The notes under the pieces were generated by a model. That model was given only the letters and a program-made list of their open reading frames with translations, was not told where the DNA came from and did not search any database. From Oscillospiraceae bacterium (lineage in GTDB: Bacteria > Bacillota > Clostridia > Oscillospirales > Oscillospiraceae), in contig JAITGW010000176.1 of the NCBI GenBank assembly GCA_031280325.1, forward strand, positions 1 through 10,568: a stretch of 10,568 bases of DNA. The letters are read 5' to 3'. Below are positions 1-10,486 of this stretch, in pieces. Numbering within the stretch: position 1 is the first letter of the stretch; every line of letters starts with the position of its first letter. A program made the position numbers and the translations under genes.

Positions 1-370
1 ATGTAAGCGTGATGTCCAGCTCGACAACGGAAACAACCGTGCCCGCCTCTATGTACATATCCTCGAGCGCAAAAACGCCTATTGGTATCACGGTCAGATA
101 CTCCGTCCGTACACGCTCCAAATCCGCGCTCAGCTCTCCGGCATAGTCAACAACCTTCACAAGCGCCGATTCCTCATGCCGAAACAGCATGTCCGATATG
201 AGGTCCGACAGCTCCGAATATGTCGTCACGACGGACATCTCGTCCTCTGCCTCCTGCGCTGACGGCGGGCGGCGCTGCGATGTAATAAGTATCTCTCCGT
301 CCAAAATCGAGTTACAGGCGCACAAAAGCAGCATTCCAAGCGCCATCGCCGCCGTAATCGCGCGTTTCAT
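1..370 (-). CDS. Putative lipoprotein, N-terminal part only
   Basis: This open frame is continuous for 123 codons and runs off the left edge, so the C-terminus is missing. The N-terminus is a classic lipoprotein signal: a Lys-Arg start, a hydrophobic run (AMALGMLLL) and a lipobox LCAC with the lipidated Cys near residue 19. The mature protein would be anchored outside the membrane. The visible mature part is acidic and rich in E, D and V, with an alternating hydrophobic pattern towards its end (VVSVVELDITLT). That region resembles, from memory only, the region ahead of the transglutaminase-like domain in some clostridial lipoproteins. I cannot confirm this because the catalytic part lies outside the window. 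The ATG shares four bases (ATGA) with the stop of the upstream ATPase gene, which suggests translational coupling and one operon. It has no separate ribosome binding site that I can pick out beyond the upstream coding sequence. Confidence 0.75.
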   Translation of the reverse strand, partial: MKRAITAAMALGMLLLCACNSILDGEILITSQRRPPSAQEAEDEMSVVTTYSELSDLISDMLFRHEESALVKVVDYAGELSADLERVRTEYLTVIPIGVFALEDMYIEAGTVVSVVELDITLT

Positions 371-1584
371 ACGATCTCGCGCCGCAGCAGAAAGTCCGCG
401 GCATTCATCGTGCGCACTCCGTTTTTGTTGCCGGATGCGCCCGGTTCTGTCGTCAATATAAGCTTTGGATAGCTGTCATGCGCACTCATAAGCAGGGAGT
501 AATCGTCCCGCGCCTCGCCGCCGCGCAGATCTGAACTTAACTGAACGTATATTCTGTCCTCACCGCGCTGCGCGACAAAGTCGATTTCCCGTCTGCCAAG
601 CTTGCCCATGTATACGTCATATCCGCGGCGGCGAAGCTCCAGATACACGATGTTTTCCAGTGCGGCGGCAACCGTATCCGGCGAGAAGCCCATCATCGCA
701 TAGCGCAGCGACGTGTCCAATATATAAAATTTTTCCTGTGTTTTCAGCGCTTCTCCCACATGGAGGTCATATCTGCGGCAGCGGGAAACGATATACGCGT
801 TCTCCAGCCGTTCTAAATATGTATAAACCGTCTCGATGTTTATCTCCTTGTTTTCTCCCTTTAGCTTGTCCGATAAAAACTTTGCGGAAAATGTATTGCC
901 TACATTTTCAAATACAAATCGTATAATTCGATCGAGCTGATCCGCGCGGCGCAGCTGGCTTGATCCCGCGACCTCGTTCCATATTGCGGCGCTCATAACA
1001 TCCCGCGCATAGGTGTATGCCTCAAGCTGCGTATAGGCGCGCAAATGCAGCGATGGAAATCCGCCGAACATCAAATACCGCACAAGCTCACGCTGGATAT
1101 CCTCTGCCTGAGCGTGCGTTTCGCGGAACGCGATATATTCCGCGAACGACAGGGGATACACGTCAAACAGCTCGTGATGCTCTTCCAAAACGGCAAGCGT
1201 ATTCTTCGTCGTTATGGCGCCGTTTGAGCCGGCGACGTAAATATCAGCGTCAAAGTCATGAAGCATGTGCAGCGCCGCCTTTTCCCAGCCGTATACACGC
1301 GCCGCCTCGTCGAGGAAGAGATATGTACGCTCTCCCGGCGTCACCCGCGCCGCAATCGCGTCGTACAGCGACTGATAGTCTGTGACCGCGGCGTTTTCAA
1401 GTCCCTCGAATGACATGTAGACTATGTTCTTCTTCATGACGCCGCGCGCCAAAAATTCCTCTTGCAGAAGCTGGAGTATCGCGGTTTTGCCGCTGCGCTT
1501 CATGCCCCGCAGGATTTTCACTGACGGTCTGTCCGCGTATTGCAATATTTTTTCGGTATACTGCGGCCGCTTTATCAAGGGCAT
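367..1584 (-). CDS. AAA ATPase with DUF4143 C-terminal domain
   Basis: The 405-residue protein has the two-part layout of the AAA_14/DUF4143 family. The N-terminal ATPase has a Walker A GMKRSGKT (residues 27-34), a Walker B YLFLDEA (88-94), a family GSNG motif (119-122) and PLSFAEY (144-150). The C-terminal half (about 200-390) carries the DUF4143 pattern: LENAYIVSRCRRYD, then ENIVYLELRRRGYDVYMGK, then EIDFVAQR. The last part resembles a PD-(D/E)xK-like nuclease fold core, although DNA cleavage has not been established for this family as far as I know. These proteins are common in anaerobes and often have no known partner. The length matches the family, so the gene looks intact. The ATG at 1584 follows a strong GAGAGGGGG site and a promoter at 1619-1647. 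The stop overlaps the start of the downstream lipoprotein gene, so the two are probably co-expressed. The cellular role is unknown. Confidence 0.9.
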   Translation of the reverse strand: MPLIKRPQYTEKILQYADRPSVKILRGMKRSGKTAILQLLQEEFLARGVMKKNIVYMSFEGLENAAVTDYQSLYDAIAARVTPGERTYLFLDEAARVYGWEKAALHMLHDFDADIYVAGSNGAITTKNTLAVLEEHHELFDVYPLSFAEYIAFRETHAQAEDIQRELVRYLMFGGFPSLHLRAYTQLEAYTYARDVMSAAIWNEVAGSSQLRRADQLDRIIRFVFENVGNTFSAKFLSDKLKGENKEINIETVYTYLERLENAYIVSRCRRYDLHVGEALKTQEKFYILDTSLRYAMMGFSPDTVAAALENIVYLELRRRGYDVYMGKLGRREIDFVAQRGEDRIYVQLSSDLRGGEARDDYSLLMSAHDSYPKLILTTEPGASGNKNGVRTMNAADFLLRREIV

Positions 1585-1687: not shown

Positions 1688-1727
1688 CAAAAGAAAAACA
1701 GCCTGCGGAATATCCGCAAGCTGTTTT
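1688..1727 (-). terminator. Intrinsic terminator of the radical SAM/peptide unit
   Basis: The arms 1695-1702 and 1720-1727 (8 bp) plus 1704-1709 and 1713-1718 (6 bp) form a long stem with one C/A mismatch and a three-base loop. On the minus strand the stem is followed by TTTTTCTTTT. It begins about 15 bases after the stop codon of the small peptide gene, so it closes that transcription unit before the ATPase promoter. Confidence 0.85.
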
Positions 1728-1742
1728 CTGTATTTAACTCCG

Positions 1743-1859
1743 TTATTTGCTGCACCGCTGGCAGTTCCCCTGACTTCCGCAATTACACGCCGTAGAAGCC
1801 GACACAGGCGGTATTGCCGTACTTCCGTTCTTTTTGATCATATCTAAAAGTGTGCCCAT
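1743..1859 (-). CDS. 38-residue Cys-rich peptide, candidate RiPP precursor
   Basis: A complete small frame runs from ATG (1859-1857) to TAA (1745-1743). It lies 40 bases downstream of the radical SAM/SPASM gene and just upstream of an intrinsic terminator. Residues 1-24 look like a leader: an amphipathic start (MGTLLDMIKKN) and a Pro/Ser/Ala/Thr linker (IPPVSASTA). The last 14 residues, CNCGSQGNCQRCSK, hold all four cysteines in a C-x-C-x5-C-x2-C array (Cys 25, 27, 33, 36) with small and polar residues between them. This is the layout expected of a leader-core precursor for radical SAM thioether peptides (sactipeptides/ranthipeptides). It does not match SCIFF, thuricin, Clo7bot, streptide or PqqA as I remember them. 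The ribosome binding site is only a purine run (AGAGAAAGAG). Alternatively it could be a small metal-binding protein. The coding call rests on position, composition and the terminator; function is inferred. Confidence 0.7.
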   Translation of the reverse strand: MGTLLDMIKKNGSTAIPPVSASTACNCGSQGNCQRCSK

Positions 1860-1899
1860 ACTCTTTCTCTTTTCGCAAATATTTTCAGCCCTGCAAGCT

Positions 1900-2949
1900 T
1901 TATTTCACTGCGCGGCAGATTGACGGTTCATATATCAGCCAGTTCATCAGACAGCCTCCGCGGCAGTCATCCCTGCGGCGGCATACATCGCACTGTGCGG
2001 ACGGATAACGCAGCAAGCCCGCATAGAACTCCCGCAGCGCTTCTCTGTTTAAGTGTGTATAAAGCGATTTTGCGTCGTTAAAATCGATTCCCCTGCGCGC
2101 TATTATCGTTTCATGCAGCTCATTGCACGGCAAAACGTCCCCCTCAGTATTGAAATTCAGTCCACCGCGCGAAAACATCTGGCATATCGTCTGAATTTTG
2201 CCGCGCAAAAGCATCGCATCAACGAATTCCTCCGGGAACAGGCACAGCGGCATTTGAATATCAAGCTCGTACTCGTCGGCATAAAGCGCTTCCAGCATAT
2301 CCGCAATCGCGACGGTCTCCTCCGCGATACGCTCTGCCGGAATGGAATATCCAAGCTCCGCTTTTCCGTTTTTCAGCACCGGACTGCACATATTGACGAT
2401 TATCGACCGCGCGCCTAACTCCCGCGAGCGCTCCGCGATCCTGCGCAATCCCTCAAATCCAACCAAGCTGTTGTAAACTGTCGTGACGCCCGTATCGAAA
2501 AGCTCCAGCGCGCGGCATATTCCCGACTGAGTATGCCCAAACTCCCGTGAGCCCGTGACCCGCAGAAATTCCTCCTCATCCGCAGATTTTACGGATATGG
2601 AAATCCTGTCATTGGGATGTGCGCGGTACGCGTCCAAAAACGCGTCCTCACTAAAGCGCATGGCGTTTGTAATGAGTCCGGAGCCGAGTCCAACGGCTCT
2701 TATGTAGTCGTTCAGTTCGAAAAGCCCCGCCCATAGCGTCGGCTCTCCGCCTATTATGTTCACGTGCGTGACTCCAAGTTCCTTTGAAATGTCAACAAGC
2801 TCCCTGGCGAGCGAAAGACTCATTTCTCCGCCCGCAGTGACGGACTTCATTCCGTTATAGCACCACTTACATCGCATATTGCAGCCGCTGTTGACGTTCA
2901 GCCACGTCATTTTCGGATTGCACGAAAAATCATATACCGCAATGCTCAT
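1900..2949 (-). CDS. Radical SAM/SPASM protein, probable peptide maturase
   Basis: The 349-residue enzyme has the radical SAM CxxxCxxC motif as CNMRCKWC (Cys 23, 27, 30) for the SAM-binding [4Fe-4S] cluster, and GGEP at 67-70 for SAM binding. The C-terminal SPASM domain is complete: Cys256-x13-Gly270-x4-Cys275, then Cys320-x2-Cys323-x5-Cys329-x3-Cys333, then Cys345. These seven cysteines would hold two auxiliary [4Fe-4S] clusters. SPASM enzymes include PqqE, AlbA, anaerobic sulfatase maturases and thioether-forming RiPP maturases. The small Cys-rich gene 40 bases downstream points to peptide modification. No RRE-like extension ahead of the radical SAM core is obvious, since the CxxxCxxC motif starts at residue 23. 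The start at 2949 has a close AGGA site, with little space before the ATG, and a consensus promoter. Enzyme class is confident; the substrate is inferred from the neighbour. Confidence 0.9.
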   Translation of the reverse strand: MSIAVYDFSCNPKMTWLNVNSGCNMRCKWCYNGMKSVTAGGEMSLSLARELVDISKELGVTHVNIIGGEPTLWAGLFELNDYIRAVGLGSGLITNAMRFSEDAFLDAYRAHPNDRISISVKSADEEEFLRVTGSREFGHTQSGICRALELFDTGVTTVYNSLVGFEGLRRIAERSRELGARSIIVNMCSPVLKNGKAELGYSIPAERIAEETVAIADMLEALYADEYELDIQMPLCLFPEEFVDAMLLRGKIQTICQMFSRGGLNFNTEGDVLPCNELHETIIARRGIDFNDAKSLYTHLNREALREFYAGLLRYPSAQCDVCRRRDDCRGGCLMNWLIYEPSICRAVK

Positions 2950-2974: not shown

Positions 2975-3002
2975 ATTATATTCTTTCCCTATATTTTGTC
3001 AA
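2975..3002 (-). promoter_or_regulatory. Consensus sigma-70 promoter of the radical SAM/peptide unit
   Basis: On the minus strand a perfect -35 TTGACA (3002-2997) and a perfect -10 TATAAT (2980-2975) are 16 bases apart, about 25 bases upstream of the radical SAM ATG. It is one of the strongest-looking promoters in the window. Confidence 0.8.
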
Positions 3003-3087: not shown

Positions 3088-5364
3088 CTACAGTCTGTTG
3101 CGCTGTATTTTTCCGTTCACCGTTTTGGGAAGCTCGTCACGGAACACGACCACACGCGGGTATTTATATGGCGCGGTGTGCGACTTGACGTATTCCTGAA
3201 TCTCACGCGCAAGCTCTTCGTTCGGCTCGCGCCCGGAGTTTTTTGTGAGTACGATACTCGCTTTTACAACCTGACCGCGAACCTCGTCCGGCGCCGCCGA
3301 TACTCCGCACTCCAGCACGTAAGGAAGCTCCATGATGACGCTCTCGATCTCGAAAGGCCCGATACGATAGCCGCTGGATTTTATCACGTCGTCCACGCGC
3401 CCGACATACCAGAAGAAGCCCTCCTCGTCGCGCCAGGCTGTGTCGCCTGTGTGATATACGCCGAATTTCCAGGCGTTAGATGTCTTTTCCTCTTCCGCAA
3501 AATATCCCTTGAAGAGCCCCGCGGGCTTCCCGTCCGCAAGCCGCACGACGATCTCTCCCGTCTCGCCCGCCGCGACGGGATTTCCGTCCGCGTCGATCAC
3601 GTCCAGGGTGTATTGAGGGTTCGCCTTTCCCATGGAGCCGATTCTCGGCGTCATGCCCACAAAATTGCCGATGAGCAGCGTCGTCTCCGTCTGACCGAAG
3701 CCCTCCATTACGGAAAGACCTGTCATCTCCTTGAATTTATGATATACCTCCGGATTGAGCGCCTCGCCCGCCGTCGTCGCGTGTCTGATGGAAGAGAGAT
3801 CGTATTTTGATATGTCTTCGCGGATTAAGAAGCGATAGATCGTCGGAGGGGCGCAGAACGTCGTGATACCGTATTTCTTGAACATGGGCAGCACCTGCGC
3901 CGACTCGAATCTGTCGAAGTCATATGTGAAGATCGCGGCTTCGCACAGCCACTGACCATAGAGCTTGCCCCAAAGCGCCTTTCCCCAGCCGGTGTCGGAA
4001 ATTGTAAAATGTATCCCGTTTGAATCCACGTTGTGCCAGTATTTTGCCGTCACGAAGTGTCCCATCGGATAAGTATGACTGTGGGTGACAAGCTTTGGAT
4101 ACCCCGTCGTGCCGGATGAGAAAAACATGAGCATGTCGTCCTCGCCGCCGGGCGCGTCCTCCCCCCGCGGGAAGCTGCTGCGGAATTTCATAAATTCCTC
4201 GTCAAAATCGCGCCAGCCCTCTGCCGCCCCGTTTGCCATTACGCGAACCGTGACGCCGGGATTATTTTCAAACGCGCGCTCCGCCTCTAAATACGCGCCG
4301 GACTGCATCGTCGTGACGATCGCCGCCACCCTCCCCGCCTTGAAGCGATAGTCAAAATCTTTTTCCAGCAGCTGATCCGGCGCCGGAATCATAACCGCCC
4401 CAAGCTTGTGGAGCGCGAGCGTCGTCACCCAAAACTGCCAGTTGCGCTTCAGCACAAGCATTACATGATCTCCGCGCTTTATGCCCAGCGACTGAAAATA
4501 GTTCGCGGCGCGGCTTGACAGGCGGGACATATCCTCAAACGTGAAGCGGCGCTCATTCATGTCGCGGTCGATATGAAGCATGGCAAGCTTTTGCGGATTT
4601 TTTTCCGCGAGAACGTCCACAACGTCAAAGGCAAAGTTGAACCTTTCAAGATTTTTGAATTTCAGCGACACCGGTCCGCCAAGCTCATTCTCCTCCGCGT
4701 CAACATATCCCGCGTATATTAACTCTCCGCTGTGGTCAAGCGGCGCAGCCGCTTCAGCATACTCCGAGTCGGCGGCCGCGCCCGGAAATACCACCGCGAT
4801 GAACTCGCAGTCGCGCCCTCCGGTGGCGATCATTCCATGGGGACGTCCGGAATTATAGTAGATCGAATCCCCCTCATAAAGCTCCTCCACATGCTCGCCG
4901 ACCTGTATACGCAGCGAGCCGGAGACGACGAAATCAAACTCGTGCCCGCTGTGTGTGTCAAGCTCGATGGGCGCGTCCTGCCGCTCCTTCCGGAAAACAT
5001 AGCGAACGAGATACGGTCTGCCAAGCTTGTCGCGGAACAGGGGCGCGAGATCGCGTATATCGTGCCCGTCCTCGCTTGCGGTGACACGTCCCTGACCCGC
5101 GCGGGTGATCGTATATCCCGTCAGCCGCGCGGTGCTGCTGCCCTCAAGCAGATCAGACAGCCCTACGCCGAAAAAATCCGCGCACTTTAGAATGAACGAG
5201 TACGGCAAATCAGCCGATCCGCTCTCATAGACCGCATATTCTTCTTCAGTGAATCCGGTTTTTGACGCCGCCTCGGCAACCGAAAGTCCCCGCAGCTCAC
5301 GCAGCTCACGCACGCGCGCCGCAACGTCCGCAAGCTGCATCCGGGTTCGATTTTGCTCTGTCAT
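3088..5364 (-). CDS. XRE-HTH/cupin/AMP-dependent acyl-CoA ligase fusion
   Basis: This 758-residue protein joins three modules. Residues 11-75 are an XRE-type helix-turn-helix (RVRELRELRGLSVAEAASKTG, then YESG). Residues 115-195 are a cupin fold with HSGHEFDFVVSG, GDSIYY and RPHG, including His138, His141 and His176. Residues 240-758 are a full ANL-family adenylating enzyme: P-loop SSGTTGYPK (416-424), EGFGQTE (554-560), YHTGD (637-641), hinge GRVDDVIKSSGYRI (655-668) and catalytic Lys752 in NGKIQR. It should activate a carboxylic acid to an acyl-AMP and then probably an acyl-CoA. The motif style is closest to medium-chain or aryl acyl-CoA synthetases, but the substrate cannot be read. XRE-cupin proteins are usually separate regulators, so the enzyme may sense its own substrate or regulate transcription. 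The ATG follows AAAGGAGAGG. A T-box leader precedes it, tying expression to tRNA charging. Confidence 0.92.
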   Translation of the reverse strand: MTEQNRTRMQLADVAARVRELRELRGLSVAEAASKTGFTEEEYAVYESGSADLPYSFILKCADFFGVGLSDLLEGSSTARLTGYTITRAGQGRVTASEDGHDIRDLAPLFRDKLGRPYLVRYVFRKERQDAPIELDTHSGHEFDFVVSGSLRIQVGEHVEELYEGDSIYYNSGRPHGMIATGGRDCEFIAVVFPGAAADSEYAEAAAPLDHSGELIYAGYVDAEENELGGPVSLKFKNLERFNFAFDVVDVLAEKNPQKLAMLHIDRDMNERRFTFEDMSRLSSRAANYFQSLGIKRGDHVMLVLKRNWQFWVTTLALHKLGAVMIPAPDQLLEKDFDYRFKAGRVAAIVTTMQSGAYLEAERAFENNPGVTVRVMANGAAEGWRDFDEEFMKFRSSFPRGEDAPGGEDDMLMFFSSGTTGYPKLVTHSHTYPMGHFVTAKYWHNVDSNGIHFTISDTGWGKALWGKLYGQWLCEAAIFTYDFDRFESAQVLPMFKKYGITTFCAPPTIYRFLIREDISKYDLSSIRHATTAGEALNPEVYHKFKEMTGLSVMEGFGQTETTLLIGNFVGMTPRIGSMGKANPQYTLDVIDADGNPVAAGETGEIVVRLADGKPAGLFKGYFAEEEKTSNAWKFGVYHTGDTAWRDEEGFFWYVGRVDDVIKSSGYRIGPFEIESVIMELPYVLECGVSAAPDEVRGQVVKASIVLTKNSGREPNEELAREIQEYVKSHTAPYKYPRVVVFRDELPKTVNGKIQRNRL

Positions 5365-5394: not shown

Positions 5395-5722
5395 GGCAAA
5401 TAAAAAACCGCCTCAAATTTCTTTGAGACGGATATAATCCGCGGTACCACTCAAATTGCGCCGGGAGCGTTTAACTCCTGGTCGCCGCTTACAAGGCTCA
5501 ACCAAGCCCCGGACCTTAACGCGGTCAAAACGGGAGCGCCTACTTAGCTGTGTTTAGCCTGGCTTCACACGGCTTTCAGACTCCGGCTCGGAAGGGATGG
5601 GCTTTGAAATCTCTCCATTCCGGGCTTTCACCATATCTGATTTCTCAGACGCTGCCCGGCTCTCTGGGATGGAGACGGTTTCAGCCGTCTTCGTCACTGC
5701 CATTCGGTGTGGAGTAAATTGT
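5395..5722 (-). ncRNA. T-box riboswitch leader, specifier probably UUC (Phe)
   Basis: The minus strand carries the T-box core AATTTGAGTGGTACCGCGG at 5457-5439. TTTGAG in this core can pair with CTCAAA to make the antiterminator. The same CTCAAA forms part of the terminator just downstream, so the two folds exclude each other. The upstream half shows Stem I features: an AGAGAG bulge sequence, the apical GGTGAAAG loop flanked by GCCGGGC/GCCCGG, and CTCCAT/ATGGAG closing the specifier region. An AGTAG linker appears further on. The specifier side reads GAGA-U-UUC-A, with UUC at 5608-5606, like GAAA-C-UAC-A of tyrS as I recall it. That suggests tRNA-Phe. The UGGU bulge fits a tRNA with discriminator A, consistent with tRNA-Phe. 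The T-box call is firm; the amino acid is tentative because the 5' AGUA loop motif is not obvious. Confidence 0.92.
5402..5431 (-). terminator. T-box regulated intrinsic terminator
   Basis: CCGTCTCAAA (5431-5422) pairs with TTTGAGGCGG (5417-5408) over ten pairs with one G-U and a GAAA loop. Six T residues (5407-5402) follow on the minus strand. The antiterminator competes for the CTCAAA arm, so uncharged tRNA should allow read-through into the ligase gene. Confidence 0.92.
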
Positions 5723-5757: not shown

Positions 5758-5815
5758 GGGGTTTTGAAAAATATTTTTTCGCGCCGCGAATCCGCACAGT
5801 CCTGCGCCGCGTCAT

Positions 5816-6805
5816 TCACTTGAAATTATCCAGCGTATCAAAGACATATCCCTGTTTTTTAAGCTCCGGAATCAGCTTGTCAAGCGCTGCCGCTGTCGCC
5901 GCGTTTATCTCCGCGTCGTGGAAGAGGATAATCGCCGGATGAGCGTTGCCGACCGCGCTTAAAACGTCACGGATAATTCCCTCCGCACTGTTCAGATTTT
6001 TACCGTTCGGGTCATCGTATGACGAAACGTTCCAGTCAAAATATCTGTACCCCAGATCGGATATCACCTCGCGCCTCATTGCCATAAGGTCGTCCGGTCT
6101 GCCCATAGTTCCCCCAGGATATCTGAACAGCTGCGGCTCATATTGAAAGCGCGCATGCATAAAATCATGCATTTTTATTACATCTCTGCGAAAATCATCA
6201 ATGTTGTCCAATTGGTAAAGATATTTGAAGTTGTGTGAAAACGAGTGGTTGCCGAGGGAGTGACCCTCGGCAATAATTTGCTTGTATATATCGTCAAGAC
6301 CGTCCCGAGCTATGGGAAAAAACGTTGCTCGCACACCGTATTTTGAAAGCGTTTTGAGAATTTGCGGCGTCGCGGCGCGGCTTGGCCCGTCGTCAAAAGT
6401 CAGATAAACCGTTTTTTGGTCATATGTCAGGCGCGTCATCATCGTTTTCTTCACGCCTGACTCCTTTGTGTCCGACGTCTGACTCTTATCTTCGCCGCTT
6501 GAATCATCCTGTTCGGCAAGCCGGGCCTGGTCAGAGGTCTGCGCCGGAGTCGATGTCGGCGTTGGCGGCGGAGATCCTTCGGCCTCCTGCGTCGGCGTCG
6601 GCGAGCCTGTCGCGTCGGGCGGCTGCTCCGTCGGTACATTCGGAGAGAGGAACGGCGGCTTACTTCCCTCCGCCGAGGCTGATGGCGCCGCGGAGCCCGC
6701 CGGCTTTCCGTCAAAGCCCTTTAGCTTGTCGCAGGAGATGAGGGCAAATACCATCGCCAGGATTAAAATTAGAATTAATATGGTCTTCTTACACAAAAAA
6801 GTCAC
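5816..6805 (-). CDS. Polysaccharide deacetylase lipoprotein (NodB homology, CE4)
   Basis: The product is a surface carbohydrate N-deacetylase of the CE4/NodB type, most likely acting on peptidoglycan or another cell-wall N-acetylglucosamine polymer. Residues 1-25 are a lipoprotein signal with a long hydrophobic run and a lipobox LISC (Cys25). Residues 31-118 are a Ser/Pro/Thr/Glu-rich linker that would span the wall. The catalytic domain fills 125-329. It has TFDDGPS (136-142, Asp138 and Asp139), NHSFSH (186-191, metal His187 and His191), FRYPGG (227-232), FDWNVSSYD (256-264) and LFHD (294-297, His296). All five family motifs are present, so it should be active. The longest frame starts at GTG 6805, but AAGGGGTGA overlaps that codon. 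A TTG at 6796 is better spaced and equally keeps the signal peptide. It is probably its own transcription unit. Confidence 0.92.
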   Translation of the reverse strand: MTFLCKKTILILILILAMVFALISCDKLKGFDGKPAGSAAPSASAEGSKPPFLSPNVPTEQPPDATGSPTPTQEAEGSPPPTPTSTPAQTSDQARLAEQDDSSGEDKSQTSDTKESGVKKTMMTRLTYDQKTVYLTFDDGPSRAATPQILKTLSKYGVRATFFPIARDGLDDIYKQIIAEGHSLGNHSFSHNFKYLYQLDNIDDFRRDVIKMHDFMHARFQYEPQLFRYPGGTMGRPDDLMAMRREVISDLGYRYFDWNVSSYDDPNGKNLNSAEGIIRDVLSAVGNAHPAIILFHDAEINAATAAALDKLIPELKKQGYVFDTLDNFK

Positions 6806-6825
6806 CCCTTTTTTAAGGTGACTTT
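6795..6825 (-). promoter_or_regulatory. Inverted repeat covering the deacetylase RBS and start
   Basis: AAAGTCACC (6825-6817) and GGTGACTTT (6806-6798) are perfect 9-base complements around a 10-base loop, followed by further T residues on the minus strand. The right arm includes the AAGGGGTGA ribosome binding site and the GTG codon. It could be an intrinsic terminator ending upstream transcription, or a fold that hides the start site of the deacetylase mRNA. Confidence 0.5.
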
Positions 6826-6918
6826 AGCATTTCCCGACATTTGAATGATTATGCGGATTTTTTCATTTTCGACGCCCGGCATTTTCTCAATTGCGCTTCC
6901 CGGGCAGCTTCCTCATCT

Positions 6919-6952
6919 GAAAAGCGCCGCAGCCCCCCGGCTGTGCGCTTTC
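6919..6952 (-). terminator. Hairpin after the flavodoxin gene, possible terminator
   Basis: GAAAGCGC and AGCC on one arm pair with GGCT and GCGCTTTTC on the other, giving a GC-rich stem that ends in a short TTTT. It lies about 55 bases past the flavodoxin stop codon and may end the dnaX-to-flavodoxin transcript. The T-run is weak. Confidence 0.45.
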
Positions 6953-7005
6953 AAAAAGACGTCAAAGATTTTTTTGTGCGCAAAGGGATTCCGCCGCCGC
7001 TCGCA

Positions 7006-7554
7006 CTAGGGTTTCCATGGCTCAACGCCGCTTGCCATTGCCCTTGCCGCCTCAAACGCAGCGCGCCTCTTATACTCCGCCGTCCAGCGGTTCTGCCCGA
7101 TCAGATCGAACACCGCTGCGCCCGTGTGCTTGCAAAAACGCTCCATCTGCTCAAGCGCGGCAAGCAAACCGTTGCCCGTTCCGCCGGGAGAGGCCGCAAG
7201 AATCGCGGGCTTGCCCGCAAACGCACCCTTGCCGAACTCGCACCGCCTCAGCCGGTCGAGAGCGCACTTCATCCCCTCCGCGACCTCCGCCCAATACACC
7301 GGCGTCACGAGAATGAACGCGTCCGAGCACCGTATTTTCTCCTGCAATTCGGACAGCCCGTCGTCCAGAATACATTTATGCTTCTCCCGGCAGCTTCCCC
7401 AGCCGTCAGCGCATACCTGACATCGTTTATAGCGCAGCAGCGCCGCCTTTTCGACCTGCGCTCCTCCCGCCTGCGCGCCGCCGGTCAGCGCGGTCTCAAG
7501 TGACGAGCAAAGCCCTTCGGACTTGGGATTTCCGGATAACATAAGAATTTTCAT
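7006..7554 (-). CDS. Flavodoxin-family NAD(P)H-dependent FMN oxidoreductase
   Basis: The 182-residue protein has the flavodoxin-like fold signature of the NADPH-dependent FMN reductase family. It starts MKILMLSGNPKSEG, where the SGNPK loop should bind the FMN phosphate. The segment DAFILVTPVYWAEVAEGMKCALDR is the family's TPxYW region (about 79-102). LAASPGGTGNG follows at about 118-128. Between these lies a Cys cluster, CQVCADGWGSCREKHKC (Cys45, 48, 55, 61). Such clusters occur in members related to iron-sulfur flavoproteins and might bind an Fe-S cluster; this is inference. It would transfer electrons in the cytoplasm, with unknown partner. Its ATG overlaps the methyltransferase stop (ATGA), and GGAGGG lies six bases before it, so the two genes are translationally coupled. 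The length is normal for the family. Confidence 0.88.
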   Translation of the reverse strand: MKILMLSGNPKSEGLCSSLETALTGGAQAGGAQVEKAALLRYKRCQVCADGWGSCREKHKCILDDGLSELQEKIRCSDAFILVTPVYWAEVAEGMKCALDRLRRCEFGKGAFAGKPAILAASPGGTGNGLLAALEQMERFCKHTGAAVFDLIGQNRWTAEYKRRAAFEAARAMASGVEPWKP

Positions 7555-10184: not shown

Positions 10185-10486
10185 CTTTGCCGCCATGACG
10201 ATGCGCGCACCCGCCCCTGAACTGGGAATATGCCCGTTTCTCCGGCAGTTAGCTCAGAACCGGGTTCCTTGCGGCACACGAGGGTAATCGCTTAATGCTG
10301 CTCGGTTCCCCGCCTGACATGGTTCACGAGCCTTCGTTGCGCAAGTCCGATTCTTCAACGCCACTTACCGGTAACAGACGACACACTCCGCGCCCTCAGG
10401 CGGGGATTCATCCCTGCTATAGCGGGTTGCAGGCGACAGGGCACCGCTGACTCCCCGATTAGCGCGCATCGTCCCGCCGGCAAAGC
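10185..10486 (-). ncRNA. ffs: Signal recognition particle RNA, large bacterial type with Alu domain
   Basis: The RNA pairs with Ffh to target ribosomes to the membrane. The 5' arm CTTTGCCGGCGGGACGATGCGCGC, given here by position 10485-10462, is complementary to the 3' arm at 10208-10185 apart from a small internal mismatch. The Alu domain shows GCGGTGCCCTGT, then CCTGCAACCCGCTATAGCAGGG and TGAATCCCCGCC, as in Bacillus scRNA. The conserved Ffh-binding domain is present: ACCATGTCAGG, the GGGGAACC loop and AGCAGCATTAAG. This places the RNA with the long Firmicute type rather than the short 4.5S form. It lies directly upstream of dnaX, as in Bacillus. The exact ends are set by the promoter and terminator, within a few bases. 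Confidence 0.93.

Follow-up and report, generated by a model that had tools for sequence, protein, structure and literature searches.

On the reverse strand of the window, by which we mean the whole stretch of 10,568 nt that was analysed, a gene for a radical SAM/SPASM enzyme is followed by a small open reading frame (ORF) whose ATG lies 40 nt past the enzyme stop codon (Table 1). The tiny gene that had been predicted 40 bases downstream of the enzyme and before a terminator was found in this position, with a hairpin beyond it. None of 200 shuffled sequences was as stable as this hairpin; a terminator pattern scan reported a site there on the forward strand only, and its single such site compares with 1.9 in shuffles, which is fewer than chance. 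Upstream of the enzyme gene is a promoter-like site that was absent from the original prediction, and the 1.56-kb region contains four promoter-like sites compared to 2.0 in shuffles. Judging from this promoter-like site, the 40-nt gap and the hairpin, the enzyme and peptide genes look like one short transcription unit. A chimeric contig or foreign origin was considered and not adopted, as the GC3 of the enzyme gene (0.622) and the peptide gene (0.553) is near that of the neighbouring genes (0.593-0.714) and gives no foreign sign, composition alone being insufficient to exclude such an origin.

Table 1. Features of the enzyme and peptide genes, numbered from the first base of the window.
Feature	Position	Strand	Evidence
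Promoter-like site, sigma-70-type: TTGACA - 16 nt - TATAAT, preceding the enzyme gene	2975..3002	-	12/12 consensus positions; consensus match only
Radical SAM/SPASM enzyme, 349 aa, candidate RiPP maturase	1900..2949	-	ORF, Pfam, Cys motifs, structure model
Precursor peptide, 38 aa, ATG start	1743..1859	-	Conservation among relatives
Conserved core C27-GSQGNCQRCSK and stop codon	1743..1781	-	Seven-peptide alignment A5
Terminator-like hairpin, T-rich 3' side, closing the two-gene unit	1689..1728	-	-24.4 kcal/mol, z -4.81

The enzyme contains, as originally claimed, a complete CxxxCxxC motif (C23/C27/C30) and all seven cysteines of the SPASM pattern (C256-x13-G270-x4-C275 ... C320-x2-C323-x5-C329-x3-C333 ... 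C345). Conservation was assessed in an alignment of 124 rows, consisting of the window enzyme, the locus proteins of more than 280 aa and database proteins of at least 300 aa drawn from a set of 67 (P0002-P0062 and P0065-P0070). C256 and C275 are kept in all 124 enzymes (window included), C236, C320, C323 and C329 in 123, C333 in 121 and C345, the last SPASM cysteine, in just 56. The retention of C345 and of C236 in these proportions suggests that distant members of the family may ligate their auxiliary clusters differently. C188 is kept in 105 of the 124 enzymes and in all 52 rows with at least 40% identity to the window enzyme (itself included).

The enzyme shows similarity to generic radical SAM domain models only, both in Pfam and among the best 25 of 66 NCBIfam matches. 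Pfam identified Radical_SAM (69.6 bits, cut-off 29.5) and Fer4_12 (26.6 bits, cut-off 22), with no match to its SPASM model, and every one of these 25 NCBIfam models scored below its cut-off. The top model was StsB (NF045574; 62.8 bits, cut-off 625), the viperin model reached 50.2 bits (cut-off 180) and the PapB model NF047865 36.8 bits (cut-off 340); a SCIFF model was not found among the same 25. Matches in PHROGs and PADLOC were limited to radical SAM or viperin-core proteins. Identity as a prokaryotic viperin (pVip in PADLOC) was rejected, since residues 19-131 alone match that model (58.9 bits) and the SPASM cysteines are extra. The PDB sequence closest to the enzyme is 5wgg (53.6 bits); this entry and 5why are presumably both CteB. 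When the AlphaFold model of the enzyme (pLDDT 88.2) was compared with known structures using Foldseek, the best match was SuiB (E 5.5e-12, TM 0.67-0.69 by query, 17% identity), and near it ranked anSME, DesII, MoaA, SkfB (rank 11), viperins and PqqE, with 5why at rank 29. That enzymes outside RiPP pathways (anSME, DesII, MoaA and viperin) rank near SuiB counts against the reading as a RiPP maturase favoured below. The first motif cysteine of the enzyme is residue 23, which leaves too little sequence ahead of it for an N-terminal RRE.

Conservation indicates that the 38-codon ORF is a conserved gene. Short ORFs are common, and the window contains 110 of 25-80 aa, so that a chance frame had to be considered; however, the peptide has 43-72% identity to six independent peptides, and the tests described here make an accidental origin so improbable that it can be dismissed. 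Among these 110 ORFs this one alone has at least four cysteines in its last 14 residues, and 200 Markov-1 copies of the window contained 20 such Cys-ended ORFs in all, or 0.1 per window. Compared with the peptide encoded at locus L005, the window peptide scored 91; none of 20,000 shuffles of the L005 peptide reached this value (maximum 58), and the others among 12,540 small ORFs scored 54 or less, the L005 reading itself probably being kept out of this set by the size limit, its longest start making it too long. A search with alignment A3 (L005, window, L006, L056 and L021) returned 12 proteins at E <= 10, with P0105 at 0.65. A search with alignment A4 (P0105, window, P0104 and L005) returned five proteins with E values from 1.9e-18 to 2.1e-8; P0104 and P0105 were query rows, so the new matches are P0106, P0107 and P0108. 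Identity to the window peptide in the alignment of all seven (A5) is 72% for P0107, the closest relative found and one known as a protein only, 58% for P0108, 56% for P0105, 53% for P0106, 49% for L005 and 43% for P0104. A profile of the six relatives, with the window left out, was used to search 18,020 small ORFs from the window and the fetched loci; L005 and its copy were excluded, as were further copies of the window. The window ORF was matched at E 2.5e-19 and the next ORF at 0.061; with P0107 also removed from the profile, the window ORF was matched at E 9.3e-18. The weak matches of this profile include ORFs downstream of the enzymes at L011, L021, L056 and L009, suggesting that similarity in the leader reaches faintly into the wider family.

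The original prediction of a leader and a four-cysteine core holds for the leader-like half and three of the cysteines. Leader-like residues 1-17 (LL...KKNGST..P) are followed by a variable spacer and by a core beginning at C27, and the residues invariant in A5 are M1, K10, G12, P17, C27, Q30, G31, R35 and C36. The stretch from P17 to C27 is variable in sequence and slightly variable in length. The exact core CGSQGNCQRC is found in the window, P0105, P0106 and P0107, with the variant CNNQGNCQRC in P0108; since P0104 and L005 carry CGSQGSNHRC, C33 is present in five of the seven peptides. C25, the first cysteine of CNC, did not stand as part of the conserved core, as it is found in the window alone and in none of the six aligned relatives; the pattern common to the peptides is C-x5-C-x2-C. 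Such strong conservation of a CGSQGNCQRC-type core suggests a constrained function and not an arms-race toxin. No Pfam or NCBIfam model fits the window peptide, and no model was matched by the other precursors searched, ten in Pfam and seven in NCBIfam. The peptide had no match in PHROGs, and its exact core pattern was not found in viral contigs.

The pairing of enzyme and peptide was followed in related loci. A first scan of public genomes returned no loci, whereas a second, alignment-based scan identified 112 encoding loci, and 80 of these were retained; viral contigs, scanned separately, contributed 57. The analysis covers 61 loci (L005-L060, L062-L064, L066 and L085); Set aside before counting were L061, L065, L067-L084 and the remaining 56 viral loci, most of which are short or weak matches. 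By a preset rule (an ORF of 20-110 aa that starts from -30 to +120 nt relative to the enzyme stop, with at least three cysteines in its last 30 residues), a Cys-rich small ORF lies directly downstream of 36 of the 61 related enzymes; among the other genes of these loci that encode at least 150 aa, 28 of 369 have one, and some of the 28 control matches resemble family precursors themselves (L031, L038, L039, L043 and L050). A density rule with wider placement identified such ORFs in 37/61 loci versus 14/103 controls. The two rules united cover 49 of the 61 loci, L047 among them being judged a chance match, and the 12 loci that neither rule covers count against the preferred reading. Inspection by eye added L010, L017, L018, L057, L058, L049, L063, L064 and L038 and brought the loci with a nearby Cys-rich small ORF to 57 of 61, a post hoc count; by this reading no precursor was accepted at L036, L047, L051 and L059. 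The original prediction was to be judged by whether small Cys-rich frames are conserved next to related maturases, and both the downstream counts and the profile match show that they are. Three of the five database peptides P0104-P0108 appear to share contigs with enzyme relatives; the link is an indirect one, drawn from longest contigs of equal size for P0107 and P0003 (2,932 nt), P0108 and P0013 (13,630 nt) and P0104 and P0033 (7,380 nt). P0105 (22 contigs) and P0106 (13 contigs) have no size-matched partner enzyme in the list, and this counts against the same reading.

Precursors at four loci lie downstream of the enzyme on the opposite strand and are convergent with it (L010:7792-7953, L017:7826-7987, L018:7793-7963 and L057:6470-6631), with a leader and core in common (GDCDC...GGWGACECNCDC). 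L007 and L017 also share a second type of Cys-rich small ORF, CDCYDCxYNCEECDxK, which is located a few kb from the enzyme, past the genes ending at 5774 and 10378, respectively.

Many of the relatives have a third gene, a point absent from the original prediction, that encodes a small HExxH...E protein and is lacking in the window. An HExxH ORF lies near 26 of the 61 related enzymes, and H147, E148, H151 and E179 are invariant in the 12 aligned cluster-1 proteins. HExxH with a downstream Glu, the arrangement that marks gluzincins, is found in this third gene, and the small protein is probably a peptidase by these motifs, although no Pfam or NCBIfam model fits those tested. A homologue of the L005 HExxH protein was not found in the genome from which the window comes; this genome is 64% complete, making the empty search uninformative.

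With a conserved leader-core peptide adjacent to the enzyme, as is characteristic of SPASM RiPP maturases, we regard it as very likely that the two genes are a real precursor/maturase pair, and there is good reason to consider them a minimal RiPP operon. The proposal of a candidate RiPP system is supported by the conserved peptide beside related enzymes. Its ingredients are of a known kind, and the system is probably an undescribed SPASM RiPP family that cross-links cysteine. In SPASM RiPP maturases the peptide docks by its leader, loses a core hydrogen to a 5'-deoxyadenosyl radical and is closed into a thioether by a cysteine sulphur, perhaps one near an auxiliary cluster (PMC8326336). By analogy, the use of the core cysteines in a radical cross-link seems somewhat more probable than other fates, and it is from the class of the enzyme that we infer thioether formation. 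Lacking an RRE, the enzyme would have to bind the leader at its barrel or SPASM region, and direct recognition of the leader by the SAM-barrel/SPASM enzyme is proposed here. The 5'-deoxyadenosyl radical would take a hydrogen from the core CGSQGNCQRC, and C27, C36 and often C33 could form thioether or similar cross-links with a loss of 2 Da each. C27, C36 and the common C33 would be the likely sulphur donors, and Q30, G31 and R35 are candidate acceptor or recognition residues. In relatives, leader removal is probably the task of the HExxH...E protein whose gene adjoins that of the precursor; in the window this step would fall to another protease.

A possible alternative is that the enzyme modifies the peptide without a cysteine cross-link, by epimerisation or by forming C-C or other bonds, and that the cysteines serve as metal ligands or form disulfides. 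SPASM enzymes can also form C-C bonds, epimerisation is carried out by related radical SAM enzymes, and the top fold match, SuiB, is a C-C cyclase (PMC8326336). In addition, the CxC-rich cores of many relatives look metal-binding, and Q30, G31 and R35 show the same invariance as C27 and C36. However, the varied cores have no residue type but cysteine in common, as would suit its involvement in the modification, and the closest PDB sequence, presumably that of CteB, belongs to a thioether former; we consider this alternative unlikely, if still a serious one. The peptide could instead be a separate metal-binding or redox protein that is merely co-transcribed, or a helper in assembly of the Fe-S clusters of the enzyme, as might be suggested by the Cys-dense CxC and CxxC cores of the wider family. 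This is improbable in view of the leader and core layout with its variable spacer and the HExxH partner at many loci; furthermore, the position of the precursor relative to the nearby enzyme varies (ahead of it, behind it or on the other strand), so the link between the two is not mere co-transcription.

Among known systems, SCIFF/ranthipeptide CteB-CteA resembles the window in joining a radical SAM/SPASM enzyme to an adjoining short Cys-rich precursor. SCIFF peptides have six cysteines in about 45 residues, whereas the window core has three conserved cysteines and a different sequence. The sactipeptide maturases StsB and SkfB are also SPASM enzymes whose precursors contain cysteine, but the window enzyme is far below the StsB cut-off and the peptide is unlike sactipeptide precursors by any model searched. 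CteB has an N-terminal RRE (PMC8326336), for which the window enzyme has no room. The leader of SuiB streptide synthase, the best structural match, is reported in the active site and not on the RRE, a possible parallel for the RRE-less window enzyme; SuiB differs from that enzyme in its low identity, in having an RRE and in making a C-C bond (PMC8326336). Graspetides have been reported from candidate-phyla (CPR) bacteria and are thus RiPPs of bacteria that hold many of the genome-borne enzyme relatives, but they depend on ATP-grasp ligases, in contrast to the SPASM enzyme and Cys core described here (PMC8939145). Among the matches listed from open-licence papers, we recognised no description of the system or its core.

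In a tree constructed by a quick method, the window enzyme falls in a set of 22 rows (99% support) inside a set of 46 rows (98%) that includes L005. Many of the genome-borne relatives are recorded as Patescibacteria, including Saccharibacteria, and a deeper branch contains 19 Bacillota rows, with a Cys-rich ORF before the enzyme in several of the loci. Some Bacillota relatives have Cys-Gly-Ala or SACGAC-type repeat cores, unlike the CxC cores of many others; the repeat cores precede the enzyme in L025, L035 and L042 and follow it in L034. It is conceivable, and we offer this tentatively, that a RiPP class is spread among Patescibacteria and gut Bacillota in which a SPASM enzyme lacking an RRE is joined by a precursor of ~36-110 aa, whose Cys core is specific to the lineage, and often by a dedicated minimal HExxH...E leader peptidase. 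The tightly conserved decapeptide CGSQGNCQRC of the window clade, with its invariant Cys, Gln and Arg, would then suggest a new cross-link (one between Cys27 and the third residue after it, Gln, for example) or else a product that is metal- or cofactor-like, and not a fast-evolving antibiotic. The system would be a very small one, with two genes, a 38-aa precursor and no family model in the libraries searched, and such precursors are short enough for gene callers to overlook. Through it, radical-SAM peptide chemistry would reach reduced bacteria that depend on a host, and modified peptides could there play a part between the small cell and the host.

Occurrence of the enzyme is patchy. At E <= 1e-60, and with its own genome aside, it was found in 0/399 sampled genomes of the family and 0/390 of the class (samples that overlap); class samples around the genomes of L005 and L008 contained 2/392 and 7/383, respectively, with the centre genomes counted. 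Its absence from the other sampled family and class genomes indicates that it is accessory. Phages (1 record) and plasmids (31 records) gave partial enzyme matches, none covering 80% of the query. The IMG/VR contig of L085, putatively viral as a member of a viral collection, encodes at 6001-7056 a 35%-identical enzyme with an adjoining Cys-rich ORF. In the genome of L022 an enzyme match (G794:C50:8877-9866) contains one internal TAG.

The pair is flanked in the window by an AAA_14/DUF4143 ATPase gene on the far side of the hairpin and by an upstream HTH-cupin-AMP-ligase fusion, neither obviously of RiPP type. The absence of a recognised transporter or peptidase among the ten large ORFs scanned in the window counts against a RiPP operon, as do the missing RRE, the failure to find an HExxH homologue in the 64%-complete genome and the accessory status of the enzyme. 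Matches to the adjoining acyl-CoA-synthetase-like gene are present in 9 of 12 genomes of the genus, its own included. Five stretches around it match this gene and short pieces of DNA from the leader region, and none of the nine other window genes tested, so they reveal no empty insertion site. The ATPase (367-1584, reverse strand) matches the PADLOC candidate defence model PDC-S01 with 388 bits. A T-box-like leader (5421-5706, reverse strand; RF00230, 51.3 bits, gathering score 93, E 1.9e-10) precedes the HTH-cupin-AMP-ligase fusion (3088-5364), which would be an unusual T-box target, and a bacterial large SRP RNA is located at 10203-10467 on the reverse strand (204.6 bits).
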